From Candidatus Zixiibacteriota bacterium (GTDB lineage Bacteria > Zixibacteria > MSB-5A5 > JAABVY01), in NCBI GenBank assembly GCA_014728145.1, contig WJMC01000206.1, positions 1 to 33,016 on the forward strand: DNA of 33,016 bases, written 5' to 3'. This document shows, piece by piece, positions 1,780 to 31,408 of this stretch. The notes under the pieces were generated by a model, which was given only the letters and a program-made list of their open reading frames with translations, did no database searches and was not told the DNA's origin. The position numbers were made by a program, and so were the translations under genes. Position 1 is the stretch's first letter. The number at the start of each line of letters is the position of its first letter.

Positions 1780-4700
1780 CTATTTTACCACCGCGATTTT
1801 TGTACGGGCCTCGCCACCTGAATATTTCAGAACCGCAATATAGACACCTTCCAGAACCCTGACTCCGTCACCGTTGACACCTTCCCAGTAAAACTGATTG
1901 ATCCTTCCCCCCAGTGCTCCCGATGATCCGGCCGGTATAGCCAGAGAGTAAACAGATTCACCGGTTAGCGTATAAATATCGAACTTAACATCACTTTCGA
2001 TTGGGAGGAAATATACAATCGAAGTCGTTTCGGTTTCCGGGTCAAACGGATTGGGAAAGTTGTAAAATGAATTCTCGAAATCATCCGGCACAGCCCCGTA
2101 GCTCTTCTCGACAGCGAGCGGCTGGCCGTCGTAACCGGTCAGACGAAGCCTGTTGCCGACATTGCCGAATGTATAATCATAAGTTTTTATGAGCGAAGTG
2201 TCGGTTGAAATCGCGAAGTTCTCCAATGTGGCCTGATTGGAAACCACCAGCCTGAGGTCGAGCAACGCTTCGTCTTCCTCGGAAAAGATAACATCTGTAC
2301 CAAAATTGAAGCTCATCCGGTTGCCCTCGAAAACAGCCTCATAGCTTTCACCATCGAAATCGATTATACCGGACAAGAATTGCCCCTCGATATCAATCGC
2401 CCCAGTACGATCGGCAAATTCAAACGTCATATCAGTCAGAACCGCCCGCGCATTGTCGCGTCCCTCACGAGTGGTCAGACGGACTTCCATCACCTCCAGG
2501 GTCTGTCCCGGATAGACCAAATCGTAAGCTCCAAATGAATGCCTGAAAACCGCGGTTGGCAGTTCTTCTCTAACTTCAACCGCCAATGTATCCGCCTGCT
2601 TCGTCACAAGTGCGGTCTGCTCTGTATTAAGATCATCCGGTGTGGAAACTATATCCACAATCAATTCGGAAACCTGGGCGTTGTCGGGACATACGACATC
2701 CCATCTGAGAGGGGTTCCCACCTCGAATACCACCGTCAGGTCATCATCGGAAGTAAAACCGGAAGGCAGATACAGTTCCGCCATCCCCAGGTCAGCCTCC
2801 GCCTGTCCAAGGTTATTAAATTCAGCCGTAAGCACAAACTCCTGGCGCGTTCCCATAACACCATCGAGCGCGTCGGCCGGTGAACTGATCCGGAGATCGG
2901 GATCGATCAGGGCCGGGCTCTGAACCGTGATCACCAGGCTGTTATTTTCGGATGATATAACTGAGGCCGGTTCACCGGTCGTCTGGCCGGTAGCTCTCAC
3001 TATCTCGGCTCGCAGAATCTCGACCGCAACAGGCTGTTCGGCGCCATCCAGCCAGATCCGGACCGAGTCGATTGCATTTACATCCAGGCTTTCCAGAAGG
3101 ACCGAATCAGTTGTTACCTGGCTCTGCCCGGCACTCAGCCTGACCCATACATCGGTCAGGACTTCCGAACCCAGATTCGCCAACAGCACGTAAACACTGA
3201 AAGTCTGCCCGGTGTTGACGTAAGGAGCATTGCGGGCGTCATTGCGCATACCGGCGATCTGAACAGCTCCTCCTTCGAGGATATCCACGAGGTTATCGCC
3301 CAGTTCGAGCTGGAAGTTTTCGATCCTGTGGTTGGCAATCCCCTCGAGCACCAGGCTCAGTGAATTGTCTCCACTCGGAAAATCGGTGGGTACACGATCG
3401 GGCTCGAATACCAGCAGGTTCTGTCCCGTGTTCAGGGTGTCGTCTTCGACTGCCGGCACGAATCGGACTTTGCGTCCCGCGGAACTGAGCTCGAGATAGC
3501 TGTCATCCCTGCTCAGAATCAAAGATGCCTGGCCGTTGTTTTGAAGGGTCAACTCGAACTCAGCAGGTGCTCCCCTGAATATTTCAATCGGAGCCAGGCT
3601 GCCGGCTAGATACTCAAACTCTGGCGGGGTTTGGACAGTGACTGAATCGGTTAACGCCAGCGTCTCGCTGTATGCGGAACTTCCCTGCAAGCCTGATAGT
3701 GTTAGATATAACTGATATTTTCCCGACTCGAAACCGGTCGGCACCGAAAGCGCTTCAAAAAACAGGTTGACCGCTTCTCCCGATGTCGGCAGGAAGGTGG
3801 GAACATCCAGTTGCGCGTTGACAGTATGTGTACCGTCGGAAAGTGAGAGGAAACTCTCGGTATTGAGACTGATGACATTTTCACCCAGGTTTTTGAGCTG
3901 TAAGTTGAAATCATAATCTCTTCCACGGGTTAGGCGCTGTAAATTCAATGAACCTTCAACATAGGTTGCCTCCTGCTGACTGAGCACCCTCAGTGAATCG
4001 AGAAACCCGGATTCCCCGGAAACCGCCTGCTGGTCGTAAAATCCCGTGTAGGAAGCTTTGAACAAGGTCATCTGGTTTGCCCATGTGAACGGCAGTGTGC
4101 TGTATAGATCATAAGAACGCGAACTGTTGCCACCGATTGTATCAGGCAGTTCAGGACGAATGCTGTCGATAATCAAACTGCCCTGCGTGGTCTCTAATGT
4201 CAATCCATCCAGCGCCATATTGAGACTGCCGTAGTTCGCGAGAGTGACCGTAGCTACAAACTGATCTCCACGGTAAAGCGCTTCCGAGGAGAGGCTGATC
4301 CGTTCGATCGCAGTCGAGGTAAATTCGATTGTTTCGCTGGTTCCTTCCACTCCGGATTTACTGACTGCTTTGAATTTGAGGAAACGATCCGGTCCCGAAT
4401 AGGCTATATCGAAACGTGTCAAATCACAGATACCGTTTTCGAAGGCATCCTCGGCATAGATGCTGTCGTTGACGATAGATCCATTACCCAGAGCGCTGAT
4501 TACTACCGTATCGAGCGAAGCATCGAAATCAAGAGCGACATTGCCATACTGATCGAGCGCTGTCAATTGAGCGGTCCCTCCGAATGGCGACCCTACCACC
4601 TGGGGGGTGGCAAGCTCAAAGTCGAAAGATTCCGCTGGACTTCCGGCGACTTTTATCGGACCGATCGTACGGCTGATCGTGTCGTACTGCAGGTTAAAAC

Positions 4701-6090
4701 TAACCTGTTCACTGGCGACCAGTTTCTGCACTGCCGTGCCGTTTCCATTCGCGATTGTGATCGGGTTGATCGACGGAGCTGAACCATCGGGTGCGGTGCC
4801 GTCACCGGCCAGGCTGACCTGCATTACACCCTCGAGCAGGTTGCCGGAGGCATCGCGCAAATTCGAAACCGAGATATTGAACTGCTGACCGGCCCGTACC
4901 GAATCGGGCCAGATTGTATTGAAGTCCGCAGCCAGATCGGGCAAAACTTCGATATAAGCGGTATCCCGGCCATCATCGCTGGAAACCACATACAGTTTCT
5001 GAACTCCAGCGGTATTGAACACAAATTGCTCACCCGGAAATCTCCTCTGGCCCTGGTCATCTACCAGGAACTGGTACCTGAAAGTCGGATTATAATACAG
5101 TTCCGCCAAAGGATCGGAGCTTTCAAACCAGGCCTGCCCGAAATACTTTTCAATCGTGTTGTCATAACGATCAAATATCCGGATCAACACCGAATCGGAC
5201 AACTGCTTGCCGGCTACAACCTGCTCCTGCTCCACGGTCATATGAATCCGGTCGAAATCTCCAGCGAACACAAACACACCGACGCTGTCGAGGATCATAT
5301 CGAGCTGGTAGCGAATCCATGTGAGACCTCGAAAGCGTCCCAGGAAAAGACCATCTTCGGTAAGAACACCACCCTTGTATTCCCCCATGCTCCACTCGAC
5401 ATCACAATCGAGTGAGTTCTCCAGGCTATCGAAACATACAGCGCTGAACTGAATCATCTCGCCAGCCTGGATCTGCTGGTTGGTGCCGGGTGAAATAGCG
5501 AAACTGTCAAGCGGACCCGGTTCGAGAGTGAACTCCTGAGAGACTGTCGGTCCGGTAATCAGTCGACCGGTCGAATCCAAAACCGCCAGAGCGATCTGGT
5601 AATCCCCCGCGACCGAGGAATTGATCAGATCGGGGAAAATCAGCCTGATCTGCGACCCGAGATAGGGAGTCGTCCCGAGAGTGTCCAGAAACAACTGATA
5701 AGTCTGTCCGTTGATCGAGGCTGAATCGATCGCAAAATCAATATTGCCCTCATCGTTGTCGCCATAAGTCGCGCTGAACAGTCCCCCGGTCTGGAAACCC
5801 TCCGGGAAGGTAACCAGAAATGATCCCCCGGGCACAACCACACTATCGAGCTGGTTGAAGCTGATGGTATGAATATCGGCTACACCGACCTCGGATAATG
5901 TCAGGCTGTCCTTTAAGTTTTCTATATAATCGCTTGTATTTCTTGGCATTAACCTGCCTGTCACGAGATCATCATAAGCTTTCAAGGATAATGCCTGATC
6001 TTGATAGATGATCTCGGATCGGAGCGTCCCCGAAAACAGGATCGAGAACAAGGCCAGAAAAGCCGCAACAGCCGATGTAACACTTTTCAT
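1780..6090 (-). CDS. Very large secreted Ig/CARDB-like protein with C-terminal FlgD-like sorting tail
   Basis: About 1436 residues. I start at the ATG at 6090; an in-frame TTG at 6099 adds only three residues. A signal peptide (MKSVTSAVAAFLALFSILFS) is followed by a long all-beta region with no catalytic motif. Its middle and C-terminal halves contain repeated CARDB-like segments of the type 'lNNGqasL...' and 'vlLANLGsEvl...', spaced roughly 110-130 residues apart, mixed with Ig-like segments. The last 90 residues carry FPNPFDPETE, then YTLTGE and GVYIAVLKYSGG, which fit FlgD-Ig/secretion-tail domains. It probably acts outside the cell as an adhesin or structural surface protein; no ligand can be inferred. 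The next gene encodes a PorV-like barrel, which fits a substrate/transporter-partner arrangement. The start has only a weak GGA Shine-Dalgarno. Confidence 0.8.
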   Translation of the reverse strand: MKSVTSAVAAFLALFSILFSGTLRSEIIYQDQALSLKAYDDLVTGRLMPRNTSDYIENLKDSLTLSEVGVADIHTISFNQLDSVVVPGGSFLVTFPEGFQTGGLFSATYGDNDEGNIDFAIDSASINGQTYQLFLDTLGTTPYLGSQIRLIFPDLINSSVAGDYQIALAVLDSTGRLITGPTVSQEFTLEPGPLDSFAISPGTNQQIQAGEMIQFSAVCFDSLENSLDCDVEWSMGEYKGGVLTEDGLFLGRFRGLTWIRYQLDMILDSVGVFVFAGDFDRIHMTVEQEQVVAGKQLSDSVLIRIFDRYDNTIEKYFGQAWFESSDPLAELYYNPTFRYQFLVDDQGQRRFPGEQFVFNTAGVQKLYVVSSDDGRDTAYIEVLPDLAADFNTIWPDSVRAGQQFNISVSNLRDASGNLLEGVMQVSLAGDGTAPDGSAPSINPITIANGNGTAVQKLVASEQVSFNLQYDTISRTIGPIKVAGSPAESFDFELATPQVVGSPFGGTAQLTALDQYGNVALDFDASLDTVVISALGNGSIVNDSIYAEDAFENGICDLTRFDIAYSGPDRFLKFKAVSKSGVEGTSETIEFTSTAIERISLSSEALYRGDQFVATVTLANYGSLNMALDGLTLETTQGSLIIDSIRPELPDTIGGNSSRSYDLYSTLPFTWANQMTLFKASYTGFYDQQAVSGESGFLDSLRVLSQQEATYVEGSLNLQRLTRGRDYDFNLQLKNLGENVISLNTESFLSLSDGTHTVNAQLDVPTFLPTSGEAVNLFFEALSVPTGFESGKYQLYLTLSGLQGSSAYSETLALTDSVTVQTPPEFEYLAGSLAPIEIFRGAPAEFELTLQNNGQASLILSRDDSYLELSSAGRKVRFVPAVEDDTLNTGQNLLVFEPDRVPTDFPSGDNSLSLVLEGIANHRIENFQLELGDNLVDILEGGAVQIAGMRNDARNAPYVNTGQTFSVYVLLANLGSEVLTDVWVRLSAGQSQVTTDSVLLESLDVNAIDSVRIWLDGAEQPVAVEILRAEIVRATGQTTGEPASVISSENNSLVITVQSPALIDPDLRISSPADALDGVMGTRQEFVLTAEFNNLGQAEADLGMAELYLPSGFTSDDDLTVVFEVGTPLRWDVVCPDNAQVSELIVDIVSTPDDLNTEQTALVTKQADTLAVEVREELPTAVFRHSFGAYDLVYPGQTLEVMEVRLTTREGRDNARAVLTDMTFEFADRTGAIDIEGQFLSGIIDFDGESYEAVFEGNRMSFNFGTDVIFSEEDEALLDLRLVVSNQATLENFAISTDTSLIKTYDYTFGNVGNRLRLTGYDGQPLAVEKSYGAVPDDFENSFYNFPNPFDPETETTSIVYFLPIESDVKFDIYTLTGESVYSLAIPAGSSGALGGRINQFYWEGVNGDGVRVLEGVYIAVLKYSGGEARTKIAVVK

Positions 6091-6159
6091 TAGTTCCAAT
6101 ACACCAATATGTTACGCCTACCAGGAAATTTACACATTAAGGCAGGCAGAAGTCGATAA

Positions 6160-6300: not shown

Positions 6301-8379
6301 TTAAGAAGAGCTCTGTTCTGCGGGAAGCGTATCCGCCGAAACATATTTATGCGAGGGATTGACCTGCAAGGCCTTGATCATTTCAGCCACCTGGTTTTCC
6401 TCGAGAGGTTTGCCGAGGTAGGCATGAACGCAGTCGATACGGTCAATATGGTAATCGGGGCGATCCATAGCAGGACCCATAAGGCAGATTCTGAGCCCGG
6501 GATTTTCCGAGTAAAGCCGTTCGCAGAAATCGAGTGGAAGTCCCTCGACACTGTCCTGATCGACTATCACCAGGTCCGGGGCGAAGGAGTTGAGCTTTGC
6601 CGTAACTTGTTGCGCCTCTTTAAATCCTTTCACATTAAACCCGAGCTTTCGGCAGATATCCGCCAGCAGGTTGCGGTGGATGCAATTGGAATCGAGTATC
6701 ATCACATTTTCGATTTTGATCACAGCGCTTTGCTCCTGTTCGATTTTCATCTTCTCCAAGGGAAGCGAAATTGTCAGGATAAGTCCGCCCGATTTTGAAT
6801 TTTTGAAATCGAGACGCCCGTTGTGATGGTTTATTATTTCGCGAGCGACATACAGCCCCAGGCCGGAACCGAATTCTTTAGTGGTACGAAACGGCACGAA
6901 GAAAGACTCTGAATCAATTTTTGATATTCCGTCACCACTGTCTTCAATTTTGATTTCCACCAGATCGTAGCTGTTTTTGGCGCTGATCTTAACCGCTCCG
7001 CCATCCTCGGTCTGTGCCTCAACCGCGTTCATGATAAGGTTAATAAAAGCCTCCCGCAACATACCTTTAGAGCCGGAAAATGTAATCGACTCATCTACCT
7101 CGTATGCAAATTCGACATGACCGCGACCGATCGCTTCCCAGCGCGGCAGGCAGAGGTTGAAGATACTTTCCAGAAAATCTTTAAGACGGATATGCTCTAT
7201 TTCCGTGTCCTCCCGCATACGTGAAAATGACTGTAACATGGCGATCTGTTCGGACGACGATGTGGTCGCTCTGAGGATCAGTTCGATACTCTTTTTGAGC
7301 TTGGGATCATCGGAGACTTTATCGAGTGTATGCATCAGTATCTGTGAGCGTCCCATAATCAAAGCCAGATGATTATTGATGGCGTGCATGATACCGCGGG
7401 CTATTTCCACGAAATTGCGGCTCTTTTCCAGTCGCCATACATTTTTACGGAAAAAACTGAAGCTGTGGCTCAAGGCGCGAAGTTCCTGGAAGCTTCGAAT
7501 CGAAACCAGCGCTCGTCCCACCAGGGCGCAGATCTGCTTCAGCTTCTGTAAATCATTTTCCGTATAAACATTATCAGCAAGCGAACCGATATTCAGGCTG
7601 GCCAGCGGTTGCCCCATCTCTATAATCGGACAGGTCACGAATGTCTTGTAACCTTTGCGGGCCAGTTGCTGGGTGATGATACCGTGACCGAGATTGCCTT
7701 TACTGAGGCTGTAAATTTGAGCCTCCGGCTCTATATGATTTCTGGCGATACTGCTCTGGTCGGTTCTGATTATTTGCTTTTTGAAATCAAAATTGTCACT
7801 TTCGCGCTCGTATTCAGCCTCGAGGCAAAAAGATTCAATCTCCGGCCTGAAGGAGACCAGCGATACGCGGTCATACGGGACAACATTTTTGAGTTCCTTC
7901 ACCAACCCTTTAAATATTTCCCGCAGGTCGACAGTGCCGCAAATCAGGCGGTTAAGATTATCAATAGTAGTCAGCAGATTTAGCCGATCATTTTTATGAC
8001 CTGCCAGGATATTTGTCAATTCACGGATTTGAAGATTGAGCCCGTTTAAAAGCTGGTTATCGGACTTCGATCCGGTTCGTTCGAACTCCAGGCAGAGATC
8101 TTGTCCGTAAATCTCGAAAACCAGCAGGTCATCTCTTTTACTGTCAGCGCTCAAGCGCTTATGATAATCCGTCCCGTTCAACAGCACGATTTCGAGATCC
8201 AGGCCAGAGGCTTCCAGTTCCCTGCATAAAGCCGGCCGTTCCTCAGAATCCACGCAGAGTATGCGGGGGTACTGGCCGGAAATTCGTTTCATTTCGGCAA
8301 ATATCGCGGGGATTTGCTTCCTGCACTTAGTTTTTTCAGAGACTTTTTGCTGTTCGGTATTCGGCTTAATATTAGACAT
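6301..8379 (-). CDS. Soluble GAF-domain hybrid sensor histidine kinase with C-terminal receiver
   Basis: 692 residues with no membrane segment. An N-terminal stretch (38-100) looks like the start of a receiver fold (RILCVDSEERPALCRELE) but lacks its later motifs. A GAF domain spans about 135-295. The HisKA box GIMHAINNHLALIMG places the phospho-acceptor at H332. The HATPase shows N-box NLIMNAVEA (N451), G1 DSGDGI (480-485) and G2 GSGLGL (504-509), so kinase activity is expected. A C-terminal receiver (about 556-672) keeps the phospho-acceptor D607 and K657 but has only one acidic residue (D563) where two are usual. The ATG lies 13 nt after the stop of the membrane GAF gene and has no clear Shine-Dalgarno, suggesting translational coupling. 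It likely autophosphorylates at H332 and passes phosphate to its own receiver or to a partner not seen here. Confidence 0.85.
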   Translation of the reverse strand: MSNIKPNTEQQKVSEKTKCRKQIPAIFAEMKRISGQYPRILCVDSEERPALCRELEASGLDLEIVLLNGTDYHKRLSADSKRDDLLVFEIYGQDLCLEFERTGSKSDNQLLNGLNLQIRELTNILAGHKNDRLNLLTTIDNLNRLICGTVDLREIFKGLVKELKNVVPYDRVSLVSFRPEIESFCLEAEYERESDNFDFKKQIIRTDQSSIARNHIEPEAQIYSLSKGNLGHGIITQQLARKGYKTFVTCPIIEMGQPLASLNIGSLADNVYTENDLQKLKQICALVGRALVSIRSFQELRALSHSFSFFRKNVWRLEKSRNFVEIARGIMHAINNHLALIMGRSQILMHTLDKVSDDPKLKKSIELILRATTSSSEQIAMLQSFSRMREDTEIEHIRLKDFLESIFNLCLPRWEAIGRGHVEFAYEVDESITFSGSKGMLREAFINLIMNAVEAQTEDGGAVKISAKNSYDLVEIKIEDSGDGISKIDSESFFVPFRTTKEFGSGLGLYVAREIINHHNGRLDFKNSKSGGLILTISLPLEKMKIEQEQSAVIKIENVMILDSNCIHRNLLADICRKLGFNVKGFKEAQQVTAKLNSFAPDLVIVDQDSVEGLPLDFCERLYSENPGLRICLMGPAMDRPDYHIDRIDCVHAYLGKPLEENQVAEMIKALQVNPSHKYVSADTLPAEQSSS

Positions 8380-8392
8380 ATTGAATACAGCT

Positions 8393-10417
8393 TTATTTAG
8401 TACTCAAATTCGCTCTGATATCTTCATATTTTTTCAGGTTTTTGACCACGTCCCCGGCGCTCTTGAGAATAATCTGGTTATAACGCTCGAGAGCCGGATC
8501 GCTGTCCGATATTTTCTGTGAGATCAATTCTGCCGCGCCTAAAATAGCTGAAGCCGGAGAAGCCAGCTTTCCGGGCAGTTCAAAATAGGTCTGGTACAGT
8601 TCTGAATAATTTTCCAGTTTTGCGAGCTGGGATTTTACTTCGCTGAAACTTCTCTCACGGTTTCTGAGGTCGAATGCGAGAGCTGTTATCGCGGAAATAA
8701 TTTGTGAATAAAGCAGTTCCTGACCTCCCAGGGAACGGCGTTCCCAGTTTCGCATTTCCCCCACAGAGATAATTCCAGTGACACGGTTGTTGAGCCTCAT
8801 GGGAGCCAGAATCGCCGATTTCAGAGACGGCAGTCCGAGCGCTTCCAGTTCCGGTTTCTCCATCTTGAAGTCGGGATTGGACTGATTTATTATCAGCGCT
8901 TTGCCCAGTTCAATAGCTGATTTGTGACGGGGCAGACGATCCAGGATTACCCCCTCAGGGCTTCTTTCAAGTGCTTCATCGACACCCCGCAGGTCATGCA
9001 ATGCCATCGGGTTGAGACTGTTTCGATCCCGGTCGTAGCGCCAGATTCGGCATAATGTCGCCGGGAGAGTCTCGGAGACGATCCGGGCGGTCTGCTTGAA
9101 GAAGTCCCTGCTGATTTCTCGTTCGCCAAGCCCAAAAGTCAGATTGAAATTCGAAACAATCTGTTTTTTGAGTGTAGTCATCATAGTCGAAACGGTATGG
9201 AAATCGATCAGCCGGCAAAAAGCGATATTCATGAGATCGACTTCCTCTTTTCTCACTCGATCAAATGCTTTTGGTTTAACGGCGGCCAAAGTCAAAACGC
9301 CCTTCAACTCGCCCAGCATATTGATCAGCGGATATGAGAGCCGGGATGAAAAACCGCTTTTGTAGAGATGATAATCGTCGCGGTAGAAATCAGATTGCAG
9401 GCTTCCCGTAACCATCATTTCACGCTTACGAGCGGTATCCAGTACCGAGGTTCGTGCCAGCGGGTAGCAAATGCCGTTTTCAACGAGTTTACCGCCGACC
9501 TCGATATAACTGTATCGGTACATGTTCTGAATCGCATTGTCGACAACTGCTACCGATATATAATCGCACTGGATCATATCCTGCAGGTGAGGGAAAACCA
9601 GTTTGAGGTAACTGACGATGTCCTCCGACTTATCCGCCAGGTTGAACATCGAATTCTTGAATTCAGCCATCCGCAACTTGACCCGCTCGGCATTGCGCTG
9701 ACGCAGGCGCTTGAGACGGTTATTCGTAATTTCCTGAACCTGACGCAGGTTGATTTCCTCGGGAAATCCACCCCGCTCAGTTCGAAACATACAACTCAGG
9801 GCATATCGATTGGATTCAGCATCTGTGAAATTCAGACGTATTCTTTCGAAGCCGGTATGCGGATCGGCTTTTTCTGCCTTTTTCTCCGTTTCCTTCTCTT
9901 TATGTCCGGCTTCATTTTTGGGCAGTCTGCTGTCCAGCATGAGTATCTTGCCATTTTCCATAAATTTTTCAAGCGTGAAGAAATCCGGCAAAAAAGATTC
10001 GATGATATTGCGTGAAACATCCTGAACGAACTGATCAGGGTTTTCGCCGTCTTCCAGCGCTGACAATTTCGCGACAAGCGCGGGAAAAACCCTCTTCAAC
10101 CTGAACCGGGGAGAGTTTCTGCGCCACAGCGAAAACCAGCCGATTATTCCCACAGTACAGAAAAATATACCGGCCATCAGGGAAATACCACCGGCAATCT
10201 CAAAAATCAGCATCAGCGATGCGCTCTGCAAGTCTTCTATCGGAGCATAATGCTGGAAAAAGTTGGCCAGGGCCCACAGGCTGATCGCCATCAAACCGAA
10301 ACCGAGCTTCTGGAACAGACGTTCCTTGATATGGAAGAACCTGCCCCGCATACGCACCAACAACCACAAAACCAACATGAACGCGCTAGCGGTCGAAGCC
10401 CAGATTATGTCCTGCAT
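8393..10417 (-). CDS. Membrane GAF-domain sensor with His-less HisKA-like C-terminus and no ATPase domain
   Basis: 674 residues; ATG at 10417 preceded by GAGGAGT. Three hydrophobic segments (about 7-22, 37-54, 66-97) are followed by a cytoplasmic part with two GAF-like domains (about 255-410 and 435-585). The last 80 residues align without gaps to a HisKA dimerisation hairpin: LPGKLASPASAILGAAELI sits on the usual xSHELRTPLTxILGYAELL pattern, with Gly616 at the phospho-acceptor His. The codon is GGA, so this is not a reading error. No HATPase follows; the stop comes six residues after the second helix. It is first in a tight operon with a soluble GAF kinase, so I infer that it lends membrane sensing and dimerises with, or docks onto, that kinase. 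The TM and GAF calls are pattern-based. Confidence 0.75.
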   Translation of the reverse strand: MQDIIWASTASAFMLVLWLLVRMRGRFFHIKERLFQKLGFGLMAISLWALANFFQHYAPIEDLQSASLMLIFEIAGGISLMAGIFFCTVGIIGWFSLWRRNSPRFRLKRVFPALVAKLSALEDGENPDQFVQDVSRNIIESFLPDFFTLEKFMENGKILMLDSRLPKNEAGHKEKETEKKAEKADPHTGFERIRLNFTDAESNRYALSCMFRTERGGFPEEINLRQVQEITNNRLKRLRQRNAERVKLRMAEFKNSMFNLADKSEDIVSYLKLVFPHLQDMIQCDYISVAVVDNAIQNMYRYSYIEVGGKLVENGICYPLARTSVLDTARKREMMVTGSLQSDFYRDDYHLYKSGFSSRLSYPLINMLGELKGVLTLAAVKPKAFDRVRKEEVDLMNIAFCRLIDFHTVSTMMTTLKKQIVSNFNLTFGLGEREISRDFFKQTARIVSETLPATLCRIWRYDRDRNSLNPMALHDLRGVDEALERSPEGVILDRLPRHKSAIELGKALIINQSNPDFKMEKPELEALGLPSLKSAILAPMRLNNRVTGIISVGEMRNWERRSLGGQELLYSQIISAITALAFDLRNRERSFSEVKSQLAKLENYSELYQTYFELPGKLASPASAILGAAELISQKISDSDPALERYNQIILKSAGDVVKNLKKYEDIRANLSTK

Positions 10418-25130: not shown

Positions 25131-27890
25131 TTATTTCAATAGAGTCATCTTTTTGGTCAGTGATATATTGCCGGCTGAGAGCCGATAGAAGTATACACCG
25201 GATGATAGGCCGGAAGCATCGAATTCAAGGCTGTGTGATCCAGCCGGCAGATTATTGAAAGTATGCCTGTTTACCGTTTGACCGAGCATATTGATAACAT
25301 CCAGTTCAACATTAGAATACTCCCGTTCAAGGCTGAAGCTGATTGTTGTGGCCGGGTTGAACGGATTGGGATAATTCTGTGCCAGGCTGATATCTGTAGG
25401 CAGGGGCAGATCGGAATCATCATCGGCAGAAGTCGGATTATAAACTGTTGAATTAACGAAGACATCGTAGCCTCGTCCCAAATTGCGGTTATCGCACCAG
25501 ACCGTGACAGCGTTTTTACCATCGACTGCTACCGCTGGATACTCATCGCGCGCATCACCTGAATAACGCGAAACCGGCAGGTTGCCCTGTATAATCCCGG
25601 CCTCATCGACAAAAGCCTGGTAGGCGCGTTTAATATATCCACGTTGATCTGTCCAGGTTACCGCGTAGTTGCCGTCAGCATCCATTCCAGCTCGAATTCG
25701 GTCGAATCCGAGATTCGGTTGCGAAGATATGATTTTCACACTTTCTATTACATTGCCATCCAGATCCAGCATCATGCTATGGATTTCAGTATCGATTTCG
25801 GTCTCATTGATCCAGGCTATCACGAAGTGCTCGAGTGCCGGATGCGCCGCCAAATCGAAATCCTTGTGCTGGTTGAGAGAGGAATCAACAGGAATGATAT
25901 AGTTTTCACCTGACAAACCGCCATCGATGTTAACTACCTGTAAAAAGACAAAAGTCTTGTCGTCTATCAGGCTGTTGAATGCCACTACGAACTGATCGTT
26001 ACCTGCCGAAACCACGCGCGGGTTATAGCATGGGTATTCATGCTGATTAATCTTGAAATTCGAGCCGATCGGAAAGCCGGGAGTGCTAAAAGTCTGGCAG
26101 TAGATATCGTCGTTACCATCGCGCTGATCACGCCAAACCACGATCATTTCTCCATCGCCTGTTATATCGCAGTCAGGTTCTGCATGAAGTGTAGCGGTTC
26201 CATCGAGGTCATCATTGACTATGATATTATCGCCGATCCTGCTCCCGCTAGAAGTGAATCGCTGGGCAAAAATACTAATTCCGCTGATATCTTCGGCCTG
26301 TCTGCCATCAGCCCAGCAGACCGCACTGCGTCCGTTTTCAGCGCTCCCTATCGCGGGACTGTTCTGGATCGCGATAGTGCCGTCATCATTGACCAGAATC
26401 GCGTCACCGAGTTTACTTCCAAACTCATTCATACGCTGAAAGTAGATATCACCGTCATCTGAACGGCTGTCTTTCCAGACCGCGGCGAAATCACCGGAGG
26501 CCAGGCTGGCGATATCCGACTCGCTCATCTGCGCCCCCGTGGAGGTCGAGGACAACTTGAAATTCGGACCAGTTGATTCAGAATTGCTGTCAAGCTTTTG
26601 AGCATAGATTTGAAGCGACATGTCACGGCTGTCATTGAAAACCACCAGCGCTGATCCATCAGCATGGTATACCGGCAGGGGATTGAAACGTTCACCTGTC
26701 GCGAAAGCATCGGAAATAACATAATCATCGCTGTCGAGTTCAGCTTTGGAATTCAGCTTGCGGGCAGTAATTTCTGCCCGATCACCCAACTCTGCCCAAA
26801 CTGCCAGGATTTTTTCCTGGCTATCCGAGACCATGCTGACATTGAAGGCATAGTTGTCAGTACCTTCACTTAAAGCAAAGTTATCATCTACCCTGTTGCC
26901 ATCGGCATCGAATAACTGCACATAGATATCCTGGTCAGTACCACGATCATCGGAAAAAGCTACCAGGTAACCGGCCTGTGAAGTATAGATCATTTCAGGG
27001 TCGAATTGATTGGCTGAAATCCCCCCCATATCGGCCACATTGATCGAGCTACCTGCAGTCGTTCCGTCAGAATTGAATAACCGCAGGACGACATCAGCGC
27101 CTGTGGATGAGATTTCTTCCCAGATAATCGCGAAACCACCGACGTCGTCGCAGGCAACCGCAGGCAACCAATAGTCAATACCTGAAGTTGTTGGTGATAT
27201 CTTGAAATTGCCGCCATTTCTGGCACCGGTCGAATCGAAGATTTGAGCGTAGATCGCTGATCCCAGACGGGTATCCTCCCAGACCACAACCAGGCGGTCT
27301 TCAGAAGTATAGGCCAGATCCGGATATGATACTATGTTGGCGGAGCTGTTGTCATTGACTTTCAGGGAATAGTTTATCTTCGTGAAACTGCTGTCATAAT
27401 ATTGCAGGTACAGATCTCCGGACTCATCGACCCAGACAAGGGCGATTATCCCATCAGACGATTTTGTGGCCTGAGCCATAAATTGATCAACAAATGCCGG
27501 ATTCTCGATCAACTGTTGATTCGAACCGGGAGTATTTCCATCCGCATCGACCTTCTGTCCGAATACGTCATAAGTGCCATTGCGATTGTCTTCCCAGCCG
27601 ACCATAACATGGTCATTTTCAATATTTACTAAAAACGGTCTGCGGTGGTTGAAACGGTTCTCGCCGGCAATCGGATTGACCTGGATATCGTCGAAGAGCA
27701 TTGACATATCAGTAGAGTAAGTCCTGGTAAACAGGTTCGGGCCGGGATTATAAAAGGTACCATCGGCGACCGCGCTACGGTGATTGCGGATATGCTCCGC
27801 CAGCCCGTTTTTTGAAGCGGAAACACCGTCCGGGGTGAAAGCCAAAACAAGTATGATAATGAGAATTGCCAATAATATGATCTTTTTCAT
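25131..27890 (-). CDS. Large secreted beta-propeller-like protein with type IX-style C-terminal sorting tail
   Basis: 919 residues from the ATG at 27890 (GAGGTG 3-4 nt upstream); an in-frame start at 27926 adds only a poor leader. The signal peptide is KKIILLAILIIILVLAFTP. The body is built from about 12-14 degenerate repeats of 45-60 residues, with a recurring core such as VVWEDTRLGSAIYAQIFDS, AVWKDSRSDDGDIYFQRMN or VVWRDQRDGNDDIYCQTFS, each followed by 'G.nf.is'; Asp-rich loops suggest calcium. This W-x-D-x-R...D-I-Y-x-Q pattern fits propeller blades. The tail starts at NYPNPFNPATTISF and has NMLGQTVN, SGLSSGVYFYRL and KKMTLLK, the standard secretion-tail layout. It is a surface or released protein with no enzyme motif. 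Confidence 0.85.
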   Translation of the reverse strand: MKKIILLAILIIILVLAFTPDGVSASKNGLAEHIRNHRSAVADGTFYNPGPNLFTRTYSTDMSMLFDDIQVNPIAGENRFNHRRPFLVNIENDHVMVGWEDNRNGTYDVFGQKVDADGNTPGSNQQLIENPAFVDQFMAQATKSSDGIIALVWVDESGDLYLQYYDSSFTKINYSLKVNDNSSANIVSYPDLAYTSEDRLVVVWEDTRLGSAIYAQIFDSTGARNGGNFKISPTTSGIDYWLPAVACDDVGGFAIIWEEISSTGADVVLRLFNSDGTTAGSSINVADMGGISANQFDPEMIYTSQAGYLVAFSDDRGTDQDIYVQLFDADGNRVDDNFALSEGTDNYAFNVSMVSDSQEKILAVWAELGDRAEITARKLNSKAELDSDDYVISDAFATGERFNPLPVYHADGSALVVFNDSRDMSLQIYAQKLDSNSESTGPNFKLSSTSTGAQMSESDIASLASGDFAAVWKDSRSDDGDIYFQRMNEFGSKLGDAILVNDDGTIAIQNSPAIGSAENGRSAVCWADGRQAEDISGISIFAQRFTSSGSRIGDNIIVNDDLDGTATLHAEPDCDITGDGEMIVVWRDQRDGNDDIYCQTFSTPGFPIGSNFKINQHEYPCYNPRVVSAGNDQFVVAFNSLIDDKTFVFLQVVNIDGGLSGENYIIPVDSSLNQHKDFDLAAHPALEHFVIAWINETEIDTEIHSMMLDLDGNVIESVKIISSQPNLGFDRIRAGMDADGNYAVTWTDQRGYIKRAYQAFVDEAGIIQGNLPVSRYSGDARDEYPAVAVDGKNAVTVWCDNRNLGRGYDVFVNSTVYNPTSADDDSDLPLPTDISLAQNYPNPFNPATTISFSLEREYSNVELDVINMLGQTVNRHTFNNLPAGSHSLEFDASGLSSGVYFYRLSAGNISLTKKMTLLK

Positions 27891-27957
27891 AAACACCTCA
27901 TCTTCTGTCCAGCCAGTATAAGGCAAACAGCGTGCCCCGTATTGAGGCTGTTCAATT

Positions 27958-29515: not shown

Positions 29516-31408
29516 TTAAGCTCTCAGCGGTTCACGGGCAGGAAATCCGGTCTCGGATTTAATGGCACGGGCCAGTTCTTCCAGCATGTAAGGCTTACGA
29601 AGGTACGATCCGGCTCCCAGTTTCTGCATCTCGAGTACCCTGTCGGTAGGCGAATATCCGCTTACGATGACTACTTTCTGCCCCGGTTTGAATTTTATGA
29701 TTTCCCTGTATGTATCCAAACCATCAAAGCCCTTCTCCATAATCATGTCCATTAACAGCAGGTCGTAGTCTTCTTTTTTCAGGATGTCAACAGCCTTACT
29801 GCCGTTTTCAGCGGTCGTGACAGTATACCCGAGCAATTCGAGCATCTCCGAAGCCATTTCTCTCTGTGCTGGATCATCATCGATTACCAGAATCCTACCG
29901 CTACCGTACAATGCAGACGATACAGTTGTTGTATCAGTGTCTTCATCACTCGTTGCAGGAAAGTAAAGTATGAATTCTGTCCCCTGACCAGGGTGCGAAT
30001 CTACGTCGTAATATCCCTTGTGGTCTTTCACGATACCATAGACAACAGAAAGCCCGAGGCCGGTACCGCTGGTTCCCATCTTTTTCTTGGAGTAATATGG
30101 TTCGAAGATTTTGTCGATTTCATCTTCCGGTATCCCCACACCGCCGTCTTTACAGGAGAAAATCACGTACTGGCCTGCTTCAATTCGGTTATATCCTCCG
30201 TGAAGAGCCGCTAAATTTTCGACTGTGGTTTTTATTTCAATATCACCGGTGTCCTGGATCGCATCGAACGCATTAATGATGATATTCATCACGACTTTGT
30301 AAAGATGCGACTTTGACCCATGTATGAGCGGGAGGTCCTGTTCGAGATCGACGATCACCTTTATTTCAGGCCGATTGACCTGCAGTTTCTGGAATGCTAT
30401 TGATTCCAGGTATTCCCTGATCACGTCGTTGAGGTTTAAGGCTTTCATCTCATAACGACCGCGCCTTCCTAAAGTCAACAGGTCCTGGATGATATCAACC
30501 GCTTCCCCGGCTGATTTGGCAATTCGAGCGATCTTGTTCTTGAGCGGATTTTTATCATCCATGCCAGCCAGTATCATATCGGAATAACCGACCAACGGAC
30601 CGAGGATATTGTTGAGGTCATGAGCCACTCCCCCAGCCAGCATACCCAGTGATTCCATTCGACGAGCACGTTCCAACTTGGTTTGAAGTGAGTATTTCTG
30701 TTCTTCGGCGTTTTTGAGTTCCACGATCATATTTTTGAGACGGATATTGCTTTCGACTAATTTGCTTTCCTTCTGGCGAAGTTCCCGGGCGGCCTGCCGT
30801 TCTTCATCGAGGCTCTGTTTGAGCCGATTTACCAGCATCGTACCGGGAATAACAGTGAGAGTGTTAAGCAGGATGAAGTTTGATGCTATCACTATCCATT
30901 TTTCGAGAGTGTAAGTCTCTGAAACATCCCATGCCAGATAACCTGCTTCCAGAAGGTATCCGATCAGTGCCATGGTGCAGACGTTTAATGCCAGTGCTAT
31001 ATAAGCGAAACGTGCCCCCAGGATAATCCCGACCAGAACCGCAAAAGCGAACAGCCACATCGGCCCCGCCGCAAACGCTCCAGGTGACAATATCAGGGTC
31101 ATTCCCATCAGATAGAACAGCGTCACGGCCAGGACCGCCCTGAGATTATATGAAGTACGGTTAAAAAAAGTAACGAACAGGGCCATGCCGTAGGCAATTG
31201 TATCCACTATCACGATCTGGTATAGATTGCTTTTTAGTGCAAGTATAACACTGGGGATATATGTGAAGATACCCAGAAGTGAAGCGGCCAGAAAGATCGT
31301 GCGAAGTATTCGTTCCCGCCAGTAGAGAAGTTTATTGTCCTCTACCGATTTCGGCGGATGAGTCAGATTGTATAAATACTTCTTCACCGGCTCCATTGCT
31401 GAGCTCAT
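29516..31408 (-). CDS. Membrane hybrid histidine kinase with receiver domain
   Basis: 630 residues. Six hydrophobic segments (about 36-57, 65-83, 92-110, 116-133, 135-155, 172-192) with almost no periplasmic loops are followed by a coiled-coil linker (196-250). The HisKA box GGVAHDLNNILGPLVGYSD has H263; the HATPase shows N-box NIIINAFDA (N379), G1 DGGVGI, and G2 GTGLGL (448-453). The receiver (about 505-617) has the acidic triplet VIDDDP, phospho-acceptor D554 (LLMDM), SGYS and K605 (LRKPY), all intact. It should autophosphorylate and phosphotransfer internally; the absence of a DNA-binding output implies another partner. The ATG at 31408 has GGAG too close; M5 (31396) is an alternative start. 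The signal may be lipid- or membrane-linked since loops are short. Confidence 0.9.
   Translation of the reverse strand: MSSAMEPVKKYLYNLTHPPKSVEDNKLLYWRERILRTIFLAASLLGIFTYIPSVILALKSNLYQIVIVDTIAYGMALFVTFFNRTSYNLRAVLAVTLFYLMGMTLILSPGAFAAGPMWLFAFAVLVGIILGARFAYIALALNVCTMALIGYLLEAGYLAWDVSETYTLEKWIVIASNFILLNTLTVIPGTMLVNRLKQSLDEERQAARELRQKESKLVESNIRLKNMIVELKNAEEQKYSLQTKLERARRMESLGMLAGGVAHDLNNILGPLVGYSDMILAGMDDKNPLKNKIARIAKSAGEAVDIIQDLLTLGRRGRYEMKALNLNDVIREYLESIAFQKLQVNRPEIKVIVDLEQDLPLIHGSKSHLYKVVMNIIINAFDAIQDTGDIEIKTTVENLAALHGGYNRIEAGQYVIFSCKDGGVGIPEDEIDKIFEPYYSKKKMGTSGTGLGLSVVYGIVKDHKGYYDVDSHPGQGTEFILYFPATSDEDTDTTTVSSALYGSGRILVIDDDPAQREMASEMLELLGYTVTTAENGSKAVDILKKEDYDLLLMDMIMEKGFDGLDTYREIIKFKPGQKVVIVSGYSPTDRVLEMQKLGAGSYLRKPYMLEELARAIKSETGFPAREPLRA

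Follow-up and report, generated by a model that had tools for sequence, protein, structure and literature searches.

A phylum-wide family of membrane pseudo-histidine kinases in Zixibacteria with a conserved DHp-like hairpin and no ATPase domain

Results and discussion

The gene at positions 8393..10417 (minus strand) of the window, by which we mean the whole 33,016-nucleotide stretch of Candidatus Zixiibacteriota DNA analysed here, encodes a membrane pseudo-histidine kinase of 674 aa with three transmembrane helices, three GAF folds and a DHp-like hairpin, and without an HATPase domain. On balance, this protein is probably a non-catalytic input subunit of a two-component module, and probably a homodimeric one. 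Across its homologues catalysis is lost, the hairpin is conserved and REC-bearing partners are recurrently adjacent. We favor the input-subunit reading because the phospho-acceptor position drifts while the hairpin core and the receiver-docking positions are conserved and two-component system (TCS) genes are adjacent in 59 genomes, and because partner kinases are already known to be controlled without catalysis by DivL (PMC4211667), RocA (PMC7028121) and RcsD (PMC13317618). Counting against it are the loci without a TCS neighbor, about a third of the total, and the families f6, f18 and f15 (the window belongs to f1), which have no recognizable partner kinase. In the arrangement that we infer for the contact, the direction of control, the signal and the output, the dimer would be held by the four-helix DHp bundle of the pseudokinase, the membrane and GAF parts would sense the signal, and the pseudokinase would control by contact the REC or the hybrid kinase/receiver of a neighboring gene or, in some families, of a gene in trans. 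For the contact we favor a pseudo-DHp homodimer whose REC-docking face, apparently still present, would bind the partner's REC.

Domain organization of the pseudokinase

All features of the pseudokinase and of its partner kinase lie on the minus strand. Hydropathy and the AlphaFold2 (AF2) model placed the transmembrane helices within aa 2-101 (10115..10414), with helices at 2-22, 32-56 and 66-101. The first GAF-like fold (about aa 127-212; 9782..10039) was recognized from AF2 secondary structure and from the similarity of the family profile at about 100-275 to GAF structures in the PDB. The second (about aa 267-379; 9281..9619) was supported by PF13185 and AF2, and the third (about aa 437-554; 8756..9109) by PF01590 and conservation. 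A PDB fold search matched GAF and phytochrome-type structures, driven mostly by the sensor part of the protein, and gave no information on the hairpin. GAF3 is the most conserved part, with E523 and P539 invariant, R457 and H498 near-invariant, and PWH, NQxD and GExRxW motifs found across the pseudokinase family; these residues and motifs likely form a ligand site.

The C-terminal part consists of a signalling helix continuous with DHp alpha-1 (aa 565-635; 8513..8725), assigned from AF2 and the conservation table, and of DHp alpha-2 (aa 641-673; 8399..8497), assigned from AF2 and a conserved [RK]YLxxI..SAxRI pattern. In the AF2 model, built with 84 orthologues (pLDDT 89), the two helices adopt the shape of a DHp hairpin. 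Pfam detected GAF domains in the window protein and returned neither an HATPase nor a HisKA match, and PF00512 matched 26 of 32 orthologues (best 2.9e-10). The tail of the window protein scored 39.5 bits (E 3.8e-11) against a hairpin model from whose training set the window's family was left out, while the best of 2000 shuffles of the tail reached 10.9 bits with the same model. Gly616 (codon 8570..8572) occupies the phospho-acceptor position, opposite His332, the acceptor of the downstream kinase, in the alignment; the protein has K at acceptor+1 and S at acceptor+4. The chain ends with the helix 641-673, and a further C-terminal domain such as Hpt was absent by Pfam and AF2. The alignment, the leave-family-out score, AF2 and Pfam thus bore out the initial annotation, which had described a HisKA-like C-terminus with Gly at the phospho-acceptor and no HATPase, and the predicted hairpin on which that description depended is present in the AF2 model. 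The pseudokinase cannot autophosphorylate.

Conservation of the hairpin and drift of the acceptor

A family profile search at E<=1e-40, for which the class and the phylum searches comprised the same 132 genomes, found matches in 114 of the 132 phylum genomes and in 73 of the 78 good ones. The closest records to the window, in one scan for close relatives, belonged exclusively to Candidatus Zixiibacteriota. The named relatives are metagenome-assembled, and many of their contigs are short. We retrieved 100 loci, and 85 homologues had a usable hairpin. G040, initially listed as a homologue, was dropped as an ordinary full-length kinase.

An HATPase domain was found in none of the 100 homologues, and the acceptor column held His in only 3 of the 85 hairpin-bearing ones, compared with 99% of the adjacent kinases. 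Eighteen residue types occurred in this column, which carried 0.65 bits in the pseudokinase family versus 5.65 bits in the adjacent kinases (family-weighted). The column is nearly random, and the shared feature is "not His" rather than Gly. The initial annotation had raised joint conservation of the gene pair and the Gly across genomes; the association does recur phylum-wide, but the Gly drifts (S, R, N, G, T, L, Y and others). A conserved Gly as a functional residue was ruled out by the 18 acceptor residue types and by Ser in sister genomes. Residue +1 is mostly Arg or Gln, with an acid in about 19% of the family, and residue +4 is N or T in about 47% (clade-weighted), Ser in 30% and Gly in 16%.

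By comparison, the core positions (+2, +6, +9, +13, +16) and the REC-docking positions (+7, +8, +11, +12, +15) of the pseudokinase family carry about 1.7-3.2 bits. We take +8 and +15 to be receiver-recognition positions, and assign the hydrophobic core, on the basis of DHp structures. Positions +7, +11 and +12 correspond to T250, L254 and A255 of EnvZ, which take part in receiver recognition (PMC2991266). The docking positions match the general HisKA pattern except for Ser/Ala at +12. Their conservation may reflect helix packing, and the REC-docking face of the pseudo-DHp is apparently kept. Judged from these alignments, the pseudokinase family is one in which catalysis is gone and the hairpin fold is kept.

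The same data bear on whether an ordinary histidine kinase has recently decayed in the window's genome. The local sequence, viewed by itself, is compatible with such decay, as both the acceptor and the ATPase are absent. However, all 100 homologues are without the ATPase and nearly all are without the His, and nearly every locus that no contig end truncates keeps an open reading frame of about 620-830 aa. Homologues with His and HATPase in close relatives, which the initial annotation had named as a sign of decay, did not appear among the 100. The phylum-wide pattern rules out recent decay, to which we give virtually no credence, and the distribution of the sequences indicates that the family is ancient.

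Eight homologues in f8 have lost the hairpin and retained the sensor part, so the hairpin is not always needed. This loss fits an explanation in which the hairpin merely clamps the dimer at the end of the GAF coiled coil, signalling falls to the GAF domains or the membrane part, and the TCS neighbors are incidental; so do the location of the most conserved residues in GAF3 and the many loci without TCS neighbors. Against the clamp, alpha-1 is conserved to about the same degree at its surface as in its core, and TCS neighbors recur in many families with differing flanking genes. We consider the clamp explanation very improbable.

The partner kinase of the window

The initial annotation had placed a soluble, active GAF kinase directly downstream of the pseudokinase. 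The open reading frame coordinates confirmed a gap of 13 nt on the same strand. The product (6301..8379) is a hybrid kinase of 692 aa with an N-terminal domain, GAF, HisKA, HATPase and a degenerate receiver, and hydropathy revealed no transmembrane stretch in it; its solubility therefore stands, and the receiver-like C-terminus is an addition to what had been described. The HisKA hairpin region (aa 318-386; 7222..7428) was assigned from alignment, a PF00512 match below the cut-off and AF2 helices 274-355 and 359-386. The N, G1 and G2 motifs of the HATPase domain (6754..7062; PF02518, 4.3e-19) are intact in the alignment. The C-terminal receiver (6376..6705; PF00072 match 0.6 bits below the cut-off) has D-S in place of the usual D-D and keeps the acceptor Asp607 and Lys657. 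Receivers of f1 kinases are degenerate, whereas those of most other families keep D-D, the acceptor Asp, T/S and Lys.

That the kinase is active is doubtful. The acceptor His332 (7384..7386) is invariant in the alignment; the next residue is Ala333 (7381..7383), at a position that is Asp or Glu in 48 of 49 adjacent kinases outside the window's family and Arg in the remaining one (G043). Partner kinases outside f1 usually have an intact H-box (H-D/E..N), whereas f1 kinases retain the His and the +4 Asn with Ala in place of the acid. In alanine scanning of HisKA, the acid after the His was needed for kinase and not for phosphatase activity, and T/N at His+4 showed the reverse (PMC3510030). Because this kinase-critical acid is Ala in 4 of 4 f1 genomes, the window included, the description of the partner as an active kinase is questionable in the window's family. 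The residue pattern suggests impaired kinase activity in the window's partner, which may serve mainly as a phosphatase; its ATPase motifs are intact.

Gene neighborhood and mode of contact

Among the 98 loci whose hairpin region is uncut, a HisKA-HATPase kinase lies downstream in 47 and only a lone receiver in 12; the rest, some of them at contig ends, have neither. The adjacent kinases were detected with profiles built from the Zixibacteria phylum. They are mostly soluble, and all have a C-terminal REC except three cut by contig ends. Tight operons occur in many families, with gaps of -4 to +66 nt. A partner-group kinase is encoded elsewhere in the genome in f4, f9 and f13 (best E<1e-150 in each). 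In f6, f18, f15 and several other families no orthologue of the partner kinase could be recognized among matches that were generic only; the hairpin is nevertheless well conserved in f6, f18 and f15. Conversely, the hairpin is lost and the adjacent kinase kept in six genomes (G027, G043, G047, G059, G062 and G063). These two observations ruled out that the hairpin is kept only where a partner kinase adjoins. Three of the six kinases have active-site changes, namely His to Asp in G062 and G063 (L102, L103) and acid to Arg in G043 (L127). The coincidence with hairpin loss hints at coupling, through about two events only, G062 and G063 being congeners.

The initial annotation had proposed HisKA-type hetero-dimerization for the pair, which would amount to a mixed four-helix bundle in which the pseudo-DHp and the DHp of the adjacent kinase would pair and the soluble kinase would gain a membrane input. 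The tight operons, the mostly soluble neighboring kinases and the homology of the DHp hairpins in the two proteins (hhalign probability 96%) agree with a mixed bundle, and so do the active-site changes in three of the six hairpin-less genomes with an adjacent kinase. However, the hairpin is kept where no partner kinase was found and gone where a kinase is adjacent. In addition, the hairpins belong to different subclasses (helix-2 RYLxxI..SAxRI versus the HDFNN type), and in the comparable case of RcsC and RcsD each protein appears to be homodimeric (PMC13317618). Since the presence or absence of the hairpin does not track the partner kinase, a DHp-DHp heterodimer does not hold as a general explanation, and we regard it as rather unlikely. 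Docking of REC by a pseudokinase homodimer explains at least as much as HisKA-type hetero-dimerization.

Lone receivers with intact motifs lie 3' of the pseudokinase gene in f13, f18, f15 and G074. Shared SGWGA and KPFHL motifs, in a comparison based on motifs and no tree, suggest that these receivers may be kin to the receivers of the kinases. The DHp of EnvZ alone is a phosphatase of OmpR, and the pseudo-DHp could by the same token be a stand-alone phosphatase of an adjacent or trans receiver, for which these lone receivers would be candidate substrates. HisKA phosphatase activity needs T/N at +4 and not the +1 acid (PMC3510030), and the N/T share at +4 of the family is in line with this. 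Yet the +4 motif is not conserved, Ser and Gly being common alternatives, and the window protein itself has Ser. A phosphatase role is improbable in our estimation.

In f2 the pseudokinase, a receiver-like protein and a hybrid kinase are encoded in one row. This layout resembles DivL, DivK and CckA; the f2 receiver-like protein is degenerate, however. The other flanking genes differ among families and include ribD in f13 and in several f8, f18 and f19 genomes, porphobilinogen deaminase in f5, polyprenyl synthetase in f4 and an IF-2B-like gene in f6. The pseudokinase often lies directly upstream of ribD in the riboflavin operon (L046:3096-4163; loci in f8, f18 and f19). Separately, a second protein of about 700 aa is encoded between the pseudokinase and the kinase in f8 (L064:9760-11898; counterparts in G088, G086, G027 and G047). 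It has a HisKA match and no detectable HATPase, and the L064 copy keeps the H-box His (FHDI), making it a reverse half-kinase.

Comparison with known systems

By analogy, the pseudokinase would work most like DivL, RcsD, RocA or RetS; it belongs to none of them because it has no CA domain, no Hpt and no fixed acceptor substitute. Caulobacter DivL has a non-His acceptor throughout its family, functions without kinase activity and with a dispensable CA domain, and goes with the hybrid kinase CckA and the single-domain receiver DivK (PMC4211667). However, DivL keeps CA, has Tyr in nearly all homologues and senses through PAS domains, whereas members of the Zixibacteria family have no CA, use GAF domains as sensors and carry a freely drifting residue at the acceptor position. 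RocA of Streptococcus, which acts on CovS, is likewise a membrane pseudokinase that binds and modulates a kinase, and overexpressed RocA can work without its CA domain (PMC7028121); it differs in its degenerate CA, dispensable His and six transmembrane helices, and no GAF domains are described for it. RetS is a sensor kinase without kinase activity that controls the hybrid kinase GacS (PMC5992135), but its catalytic core is preserved and has transmitter phosphatase activity. In the Rcs phosphorelay, RcsD also carries ABL and Hpt domains and transfers phosphate, while the Zixibacteria family is without such a domain.

In split kinases of the CheA3/CheA4 type, too, one chain has a HisKA and no HATPase, and 3.66% of the HisKA proteins in SMART are without an HATPase (PMC3591291). 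In the split kinases the ATPase-less piece supplies the phosphorylatable His, which the Zixibacteria protein does not. The window pair has a different layout, with the His missing in the ATPase-less protein and both His and ATPase in the partner.

Taken together, and more tentatively than the input-subunit reading itself, the near-universal DHp-only pseudo-receptor of Zixibacteria might be a minimal DivL-like REC-docking adaptor that feeds membrane signals to soluble hybrid kinases or single receivers, with the f1 partner, which has lost the kinase-critical acid, being perhaps mainly a phosphatase. A literature search found no paper on the Zixibacteria pseudokinase family; the pseudo-histidine kinases that it turned up are isolated cases, most of them with the ATPase domain still in place. 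A family kept nearly phylum-wide with a drifting acceptor and no ATPase shows that selection can act on a DHp hairpin for a role besides phosphotransfer. Its natural variants, with the kinase adjacent, a receiver only, the kinase in trans, no partner, or the hairpin lost, constitute a comparative series.

Other genes of the window

A second hybrid kinase, with MASE11, HisKA, HATPase and receiver domains, is encoded at 29516-31408. The gene at 25131-27926 encodes a large protein with a Por secretion-system C-terminal sorting domain (T9SS type). Downstream of the partner kinase, positions 1780-6099 encode a 1439-aa protein with weak DUF4832, CARDB and FlgD-Ig matches, which is possibly a surface protein.
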